Assembly: GCA_000526575.1 (NCBI GenBank) | Contig: JAGI01000002.1 | Location: forward strand, 1,798,001 to 1,862,000 | Length of the DNA: 64,000 nucleotides | DNA from: Clostridium sp. 12(A) | Lineage (GTDB): Bacteria; Bacillota; Clostridia; Lachnospirales; Lachnospiraceae | Direction: 5' to 3' | In this document: positions 1,249 to 1,528 of the stretch, piece after piece | Layout: each line of letters begins with the position of its first letter | Numbering within the stretch: position 1 is the first letter of the stretch | The notes under the pieces: model-generated | Told to the model about the DNA's origin: nothing | The model's input: only the letters and a program-made list of their open reading frames with translations | Database searches by the model: none | Translations under genes and position numbers: made by a program

Positions 1249-1285
1249 GAAAAAAGAGCAGCTGCCACTTTGGCACCTGCTCTTT
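1249..1285 (-). terminator. Attenuator terminator in the cysK leader
   Basis: A 15-bp stem with one mismatch (1271-1285 with 1253-1267, 3-base loop) is followed on the minus strand by six T. It stands between the Cys-rich leader peptide and the cysK ribosome site, that is inside the transcript, so it is expected to act conditionally. Confidence 0.8.
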
Positions 1286-1345
1286 GGTGTTTATGAAATA
1301 AACTGCTATTTCATCCCTTTAAGCTGTCAGGCAACGCAAATGGCA

Positions 1346-1444
1346 TTACAATAAAACTGTATCACTCTCCATACATACAGCCTGACAACAACATTTATTA
1401 TTAAAATAGATCCGATTAGAGATAACATTCGTATTATATTTCAT
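1346..1444 (-). CDS. Cysteine leader peptide of cysK, 32 aa
   Basis: The frame starts with ATG at 1444 after an AGAGGTGG ribosome site and stops at 1348-1346. Three consecutive Cys codons (residues 18-20) and a fourth Cys at 24 occur in 32 residues. The third Cys codon and the next bases (TGTCAGGC, 1387-1380) are perfectly complementary to GCCTGACA at 1332-1325, so ribosome position would decide whether this early hairpin forms. A second small hairpin (ATGAAATA/TATTTCAT) and the intrinsic terminator at 1249-1285 follow before cysK. This is the layout of a ribosome-mediated transcription attenuator sensing charged Cys-tRNA. The peptide itself probably has no other role. The exact competing antiterminator could not be resolved by eye. 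Confidence 0.8.
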   Translation of the reverse strand: MKYNTNVISNRIYFNNKCCCQAVCMESDTVLL

Positions 1445-1499
1445 ATGTGACCACCTCTTCTATTTACATACATGTTTAATATGTTTATATGTTATAATT

Positions 1500-1528
1500 A
1501 TATTAATACATGAAAAGGTGTGTGTCAA
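1500..1528 (-). promoter_or_regulatory. Promoter of the cysK leader
   Basis: On the minus strand TTGACA (1528-1523) and TAATAT (1505-1500) are separated by 17 bases. Transcription would begin near 1493, about 50 bases before the leader peptide start. Confidence 0.75.

Follow-up and report, generated by a model that had tools for sequence, protein, structure and literature searches.

A predicted ribosome-mediated cysteine attenuator upstream of cysK in Clostridium sp. 12(A) and its relatives

We analyzed a 64,000-nucleotide stretch of the Clostridium sp. 12(A) genome (hereafter the window, whose numbering is used throughout). Near its start, the minus strand carries cysK, which codes for cysteine synthase A (285–1217; TIGR01139, 452.1 bits against a cut-off of 350.95; PF00291). 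The longest ORF begins at 1232, and the gene has two in-frame ATGs (1217 and 1232). A ribosome-binding site (GGAGG, 1230–1226) lies between them, and therefore the ATG at 1217 is most likely the start. The closest named cysK was that of [Clostridium] aerotolerans DSM 5434 (99% identity), followed by that of L. algidixylanolytica (94%), and the L. celerecrescens gene had 89%; judged by sequence, the host groups with Lacrimispora. Upstream of cysK, the segment 1547–6289 on the same strand contains genes of the types PatB-type C-S lyase, Cys/Met-metabolism PLP enzyme, LysR regulator and O-acetylhomoserine sulfhydrylase, and read-through out of these genes would meet the cysK terminator too. On the 3' side of cysK, just outside the start of the window (genome C2:1794001–1798400, L189), translations revealed a glutathione-transferase-like reductase gene and an amino-acid-type ABC transporter (binding protein, permease and ATPase), whose substrate is perhaps cystine.

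The whole leader region before cysK lies on the minus strand between 1528 and 1250. It begins with a sigma-70-type promoter (1528–1500), composed of TTGACA (1528–1523), a 17-bp spacer and TAATAT (1505–1500). The 10/12 consensus matches found by a promoter scan are weak evidence by themselves because the scan returned four promoter-like sites where 2.9 were expected for the region; by eye, a closely similar promoter was present in the 23 genus orthologues described below. A conserved palindrome at the transcription start (1491–1465) separates the promoter from the leader. The leader ORF, preceded by the ribosome-binding site AGAGGTGG (1458–1451), starts with ATG, has 32 codons (1444–1346, stop codon 1348–1346) and encodes the peptide MKYNTNVISNRIYFNNKCCCQAVCMESDTVLL, in which Cys18-Cys19-Cys20 are specified by three consecutive TGT codons (1393–1385).

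Several alternative pairings were identified downstream of the ORF start. The segments TGTCAGGC and GCCTGACA form an exact 8-base pairing which, counting a G-U, extends to 10 pairs between 1389–1380 and 1332–1323 (the protector helix). Its second segment (1332–1323) is also the inner part of the 5' arm of a putative antiterminator, which begins directly after the leader stop codon (1345–1321) and can pair with 1283–1263, that is, with the 5' arm, the loop and the beginning of the 3' arm of an intrinsic terminator (1285–1250). The terminator sits between the leader ORF and cysK and consists of a hairpin (1285–1253; 14 pairs and one G.G mismatch, −21.9 kcal/mol) and a run of six U at 1255–1250. 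Folding of the leader region was more stable than that of shuffled sequences (z −3.55; 1/200 shuffles equally good), and the stretches between the named parts are variable in sequence. The original prediction had been made from the DNA letters alone. Its promoter (TTGACA/TAATAT, 17-bp spacing, also kept in relatives), its 32-codon ORF with a ribosome site and three consecutive Cys codons, and its 8-base pairing of the third Cys codon region with a downstream segment were all borne out by this analysis. The terminator it had placed before cysK exists as well, with 14 pairs and a mismatch in place of the 15 bp described. The attenuator layout it had proposed was largely right, except that the antiterminator was not listed.

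To find out how far this leader extends, we used a genome search, in which cysK matches were detected in all 25 genomes of the genus, 23 of them with a direct orthologue (≥85% identity) and two (G410 and G413) with a more distant match only. A leader with the Cys run preceded 21 of the 23 orthologues. In the remaining two (L121 and L125), the cysK ribosome site comes almost immediately after the promoter and palindrome. The conservation of the ORF and its Cys codons in relatives, which the original prediction had put forward as its check, was thus seen throughout most of the genus, and patchily in other genera. Leaders of the same type, though diverged, were found before cysK outside the genus in L007/L092, L017, L025, L085/L155, L091 and L173, and no leader was present upstream of seven more distant cysK-like genes (L126–L132, 71–73% identity). 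In another genus (L090), a member of the same Cys leader family with its terminator precedes not cysK but a gene for an SBP_bac_5 ABC solute-binding protein. This gene may serve the import of cysteine or peptides and be controlled in the same way. A second terminator-like hairpin follows the first one in L090.

The exact DNA pattern of the Cys run occurred in 11 of the 25 genus genomes; this pattern is stricter than the count by reading, hence the lower number beside 21/23. It also occurred in 10 of 397 family genomes, of which six represented true leaders by reading frame and four (L084, L086, L087 and L093) were judged to be chance matches, and in 4 of 291 class genomes, where the only true leader was that of the own genome and the other three matches (L190–L192) were again judged chance from their reading frames. 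When the own genome was set aside, four of the 29 best orthologues in a family sample (L155, L163, L170 and L173) had a Cys-run leader. From the genus, pattern and family-sample counts, therefore, nearly every member of the genus carries this leader type, and its distribution in the family is patchy. A search with the leader peptide found no second copy in the own genome, returning only itself and matches with E values of 2.3 and 2.83.

We then examined what evolution keeps in the leader, using 20 aligned genus leaders (alignment A1, from which the same-species copy L103 was excluded). Nineteen of these had three or more consecutive Cys, L109 having two, and the third Cys codon was TGC in 7 of the 20. 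The start codon, the Cys run in frame with it and, by eye, a purine-rich site before the ORF were maintained in all 20 leaders, and the sole frameshift found (L117) falls 3' of the Cys run. Over the whole ORF, the within-group pairs together gave 514 non-synonymous and 71 synonymous codon differences, a total in which shared changes are counted repeatedly, and codon positions 1, 2 and 3 contributed 223, 313 and 270 differences, respectively. Purifying selection on the leader peptide was not seen in these counts. A peptide that drifts while its start, Cys run and RNA pairings are kept is as expected of an attenuator; on this comparison the leader evolves as attenuator leaders should, unlike functional peptides.

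Conservation of the pairings was assessed in the same alignment. The protector (1389–1380 with 1332–1323) was paired in 95.0% of 200 cells, compared with 20–58% when slid by 1–3 columns; the antiterminator (1345–1321 with 1283–1263) in 82.1% of 347 cells in an 18-pair register, compared with 26–54%, one of the 18 pairs forming in no row; and the terminator in 90.4% of 240 cells, compared with 32–69%. The antiterminator and terminator are mutually exclusive, and both pairings are kept in relatives. Covariation within the genus was weak, as the terminator score was reached in 84/500 column shuffles and that of the antiterminator in 85/500. For the protector, five measures were compared with 500 column shuffles; on three of them no shuffle came up to it, on the other two 370 and 499 did, and the signal rests mainly on one clade. 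It showed a single change from U-A to C-G (7 rows, one clade) and, in L108, an A-to-G change (Gln to Arg) that still pairs as G-U.

The stronger test was a comparison of cognate pairs between lineages. It included 11 hand-chosen leaders, representing four subgroups of the genus (the window, L108, L100 and L115), other members of the family (L007, L017, L025, L085, L090 and L173) and, as an unrelated leader, L042. Being close relatives of chosen rows, L091 and the remaining genus rows were omitted, and L051 was prepared but not scored. In all 11, the segment pairing best with the 5' part of the terminator lay between −20 and +30 nt relative to the leader stop (combined Fisher p = 5e-6 against dinucleotide shuffles, with rows taken as independent, although this is only partly true of the genus rows). 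Cognate arm/terminator pairs were stronger than swapped ones, with 23 of 20,000 permutations equally good; the cognate arm ranked first of 11 for two terminators and in the top three for seven. Single leaders gave duplex p values from 0.0055 (L100) to 0.42 (L115, not significant), and the duplex of the window leader was weak alone (0.076; 12/300 in a separate shuffle test).

The position of the antiterminator arm relative to the stop codon differed among lineages. In most genus rows, including the window, it extends beyond the footprint of a ribosome at the stop, and what the footprint leaves free can be taken up by the protector helix; in L114-type rows and non-genus leaders it lies at about −20 to +14 of the stop, with the exception of L117 (+4 to +24). 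When non-genus leaders were folded with the ribosome at the stop, protector pairing was weak or absent (0 in L007, L085 and L090, at most 0.18 in L017), with the exception of L025, where it reached up to 0.57. These differences suggest that the labor of blocking the arm may be split between the ribosome footprint and the protector helix.

Folding with ribosome states was carried out on 27 rows from 26 genomes (L101 and L112 are from the same genome), with an assumed footprint of −15 to +12 around the A-site held unpaired. Terminators were set by hand in L090, for which the automatic picker gave a second hairpin, and in eight other rows (L014, L114, L115, L117, L119, L120, L122 and L123), for which it gave over-long hairpins. 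At 8 nt before the terminator was complete, the 5' arm of the window terminator was paired upstream at 0.40 with a stalled ribosome and at 0.08 with the ribosome at the stop. At this point the antiterminator was higher by at least 0.1 in the stalled state in 16 of the 27 rows, including the window; the two states were nearly equal in eight rows and reversed in three (L007, L085 and L090, all non-genus). With the full terminator, equilibrium favored the terminator of the window leader in every ribosome state (when stalled, 0.94 in one folding, and 0.85 versus 0.04 in another), and equilibrium folding was therefore dropped as proof of the window switch. Three rows (L014, L102 and L122) switched even at equilibrium. 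Because the window leader folds into the terminator at equilibrium also in the stalled state, the model requires kinetic antitermination there, and the same would have to be true of most rows. In classical attenuators, antitermination is also held to be kinetic.

The leader parts that we observed and their conservation, together with pairings that exclude one another and arms that fit their own terminators when lineages are compared, suggest that cysK transcription very probably depends on how much charged Cys-tRNA is available, through a ribosome-mediated transcription attenuator. With enough cysteine, the ribosome would pass the Cys codons, reach the stop and cover the antiterminator arm from 1345 to about 1336, and the freed Cys-codon region would pair with the remaining arm (1389–1380 with 1332–1323), so that the terminator could form and transcription would halt before cysK. 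When cysteine is short, the ribosome would stall at Cys18–20 and cover the Cys-codon region; the arm 1345–1321 would then pair with the emerging 5' arm and loop of the terminator (1283–1263) before the 3' arm is out, and the polymerase would continue into cysK. Translation of the ORF, stalling, its timing and the cysteine response are steps that we infer from this arrangement.

A further layer of control is suggested by the conserved palindrome, a candidate CymR/IscR-type operator. It reads ACATA...TATGT in the window and ACCTAT...ATAGGT or CCTACT...AGTAGG in relatives, and five sites with at most three mismatches, including its own, were found in the genome (control, 0). One of the five lies before another cysK-like gene (L186) and one before a lipoprotein gene (L187) whose product, by its translation, looks like an ABC solute-binding protein. 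Seven Rrf2-family proteins were detected above the Pfam cut-off and one below. Two of the seven were compared with PDB entries: L148 scored 79.9 bits with CymR and 79.8 with IscR and L147 scored 88.7 and 72.7, the best match of both being an unnamed Rrf2 entry. The palindrome probably adds repression of initiation by such a CymR/IscR-like protein. It is retained in orthologues in which the leader is missing (L121, L125, L156, L176 and L180), and therefore it is probably older than the leader.

The conserved palindrome with its counterpart before L186, its persistence in these five leaderless orthologues and the CymR-related Rrf2 proteins of the genome would also suit another explanation, in which a CymR/IscR-like repressor at the palindrome alone controls cysK, the terminator is constitutive or belongs to the upstream gene, and the ORF is incidental. 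CymR control was predicted for cysK of C. acetobutylicum in the available part of PMC3828012. The CymR regulon may be similar to the present case in that an Rrf2-family protein controls cysK by cysteine status, with the palindrome as candidate operator here, but it is protein control of initiation and leaves the leader ORF and terminator unexplained. The hairpin is located downstream of cysK's own promoter and leader ORF, and the leader's Cys run and start codon, as well as the alternative pairings, are retained in 21/23 genus orthologues and in other genera, which makes control by the repressor alone quite unlikely. More improbable still is a stall that does not come from uncharged Cys-tRNA, for example arrest by a nascent peptide Cys-Cys-Cys-Gln-(Ala/Thr)-Val that senses thiol redox state or a metabolite. 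The Gln-(Ala/Thr)-Val following the Cys run is indeed kept in the genus, with synonymous changes of Val (GTA/GTC/GTT) and Thr (ACA/ACT), and a similar stretch is present in other-genus leaders found without the DNA pattern (L007, L017, L025 and L173). However, in the genus the protector helix also constrains this stretch, L108 has Arg in place of Gln with the pairing retained, the remaining peptide drifts, and dissimilar leaders before cysK have only Cys codons in common.

Finally, a structured leader with a terminator before an amino-acid gene of Firmicutes is often a T-box, and the terminator could be governed by a cysteine T-box or an undescribed metabolite riboswitch. The window contained no Rfam match at the gathering cut-off, in agreement with the earlier statement that no T-box is visible at the cysK leader; three sub-threshold matches within 1180–1560 were all on the other strand, and the sequence between the named leader parts is variable. 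We consider this explanation the least probable of the three, hardly to be expected at this locus. The genome is otherwise rich in T-boxes: at least 14 matches to RF00230 were found, at least 12 of them over the cut-off, when 150 of 195 first-look candidates were scored. None of these precedes a cysteine gene according to the downstream translations, which we take to be synthetases for Leu, Val, Phe, Tyr (two), Met (two), Pro, Thr, Ile and Asp, as well as an aminotransferase, trpE and a transporter.

Cys-rich leaders of other kinds were also detected before cysK. A short ORF preceded by a Shine-Dalgarno sequence and containing at least three Cys in six codons was present in the sense direction in 10 of 80 cysK upstream regions, compared with 1/80 antisense and 4/1600 shuffled regions; as related rows are not independent, 10/80 does not represent ten events. 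The rule overlooked two further leaders (L014 and L025). The ORFs detected belong partly to the family described above and partly to several dissimilar leaders, namely MRHRKRMCCCSKGRC (L006 and L008), those of L016 and L021, and CCMCCMC (L042 and L051). The leaders of L042 and L051 have a terminator, and L042 also has an antiterminator-like pairing; by eye, no terminator was visible after the Cys-rich leaders of L006, L008, L016, L021 and L170, which may act translationally, through Rho or in some other way. It is conceivable, if somewhat short of probable, that in Lachnospiraceae and neighboring Clostridia Cys-tRNA-sensing leaders (the CCC-Q-(A/T)-V family and at least four dissimilar ones) were recruited to cysK repeatedly. 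Such leaders, only some of them with a visible terminator, would have been inserted ahead of cysK, downstream of a CymR/IscR-type operator that was there before them, and some species would later have lost them.

The classical ribosome-mediated attenuators are the trp, his and leu leaders of enterobacteria. The cysK leader resembles them in its run of codons for the regulated amino acid, its protector, antiterminator and terminator, and a stop adjoining the antiterminator arm; it differs in that the codons are for Cys, the gene is a Firmicute cysK, a candidate Rrf2-type operator is present too, and the antiterminator arm moves relative to the stop between lineages. In the available text of PMC13236596, mycobacterial polycysteine leaderless ORFs (Canestrari 2020) are cited as a case of translation attenuation, in which a Cys codon run likewise senses the cysteine supply for cysteine genes, and the accessible part of PMC1262725 describes Actinobacterial candidate Cys leaders without obvious terminators; unlike these, the leader described here has both a ribosome site and an intrinsic terminator. 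Another example is the uORFC-8-2 motif before cysS in Rhodobacterales, a predicted transcription attenuator which, according to the available sections of PMC8632094, also combines Cys codons with an intrinsic terminator, but belongs to Alphaproteobacteria, precedes cysS rather than cysK, has two Cys codons and is itself a prediction. His leader peptides before hisS/hisZ of bacilli (PMC2965389, available part) are similar as leader peptides of Firmicutes that replace a T-box with ribosome-mediated control, but involve histidine and other genes, and the only mention of cysteine in that paper is in the title of one reference. The available part of PMC4833913 contains nothing further on cysteine. 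Among the open-access papers listed by our searches and judged by title and the beginning of the abstract, none appeared to deal with a cysteine leader peptide before cysK of Firmicutes. The leader is very probably a true cysteine attenuator; its principle is ordinary and, as far as these searches reach, it is undescribed in this group.

Across the lineages compared, the terminator/antiterminator pair was rebuilt while the Cys codons stayed, and the natural absences of the leader module allow comparison. Control of cysteine genes in Firmicutes is usually described in terms of CymR and T-boxes. The leader would offer a well-conserved, directly testable ribosome-sensing alternative on the cysteine synthase gene of an anaerobe genus and, if repeated recruitment of such leaders is true, cysteine would be an amino acid that these bacteria, rich in T-boxes, sense with ribosomes instead.
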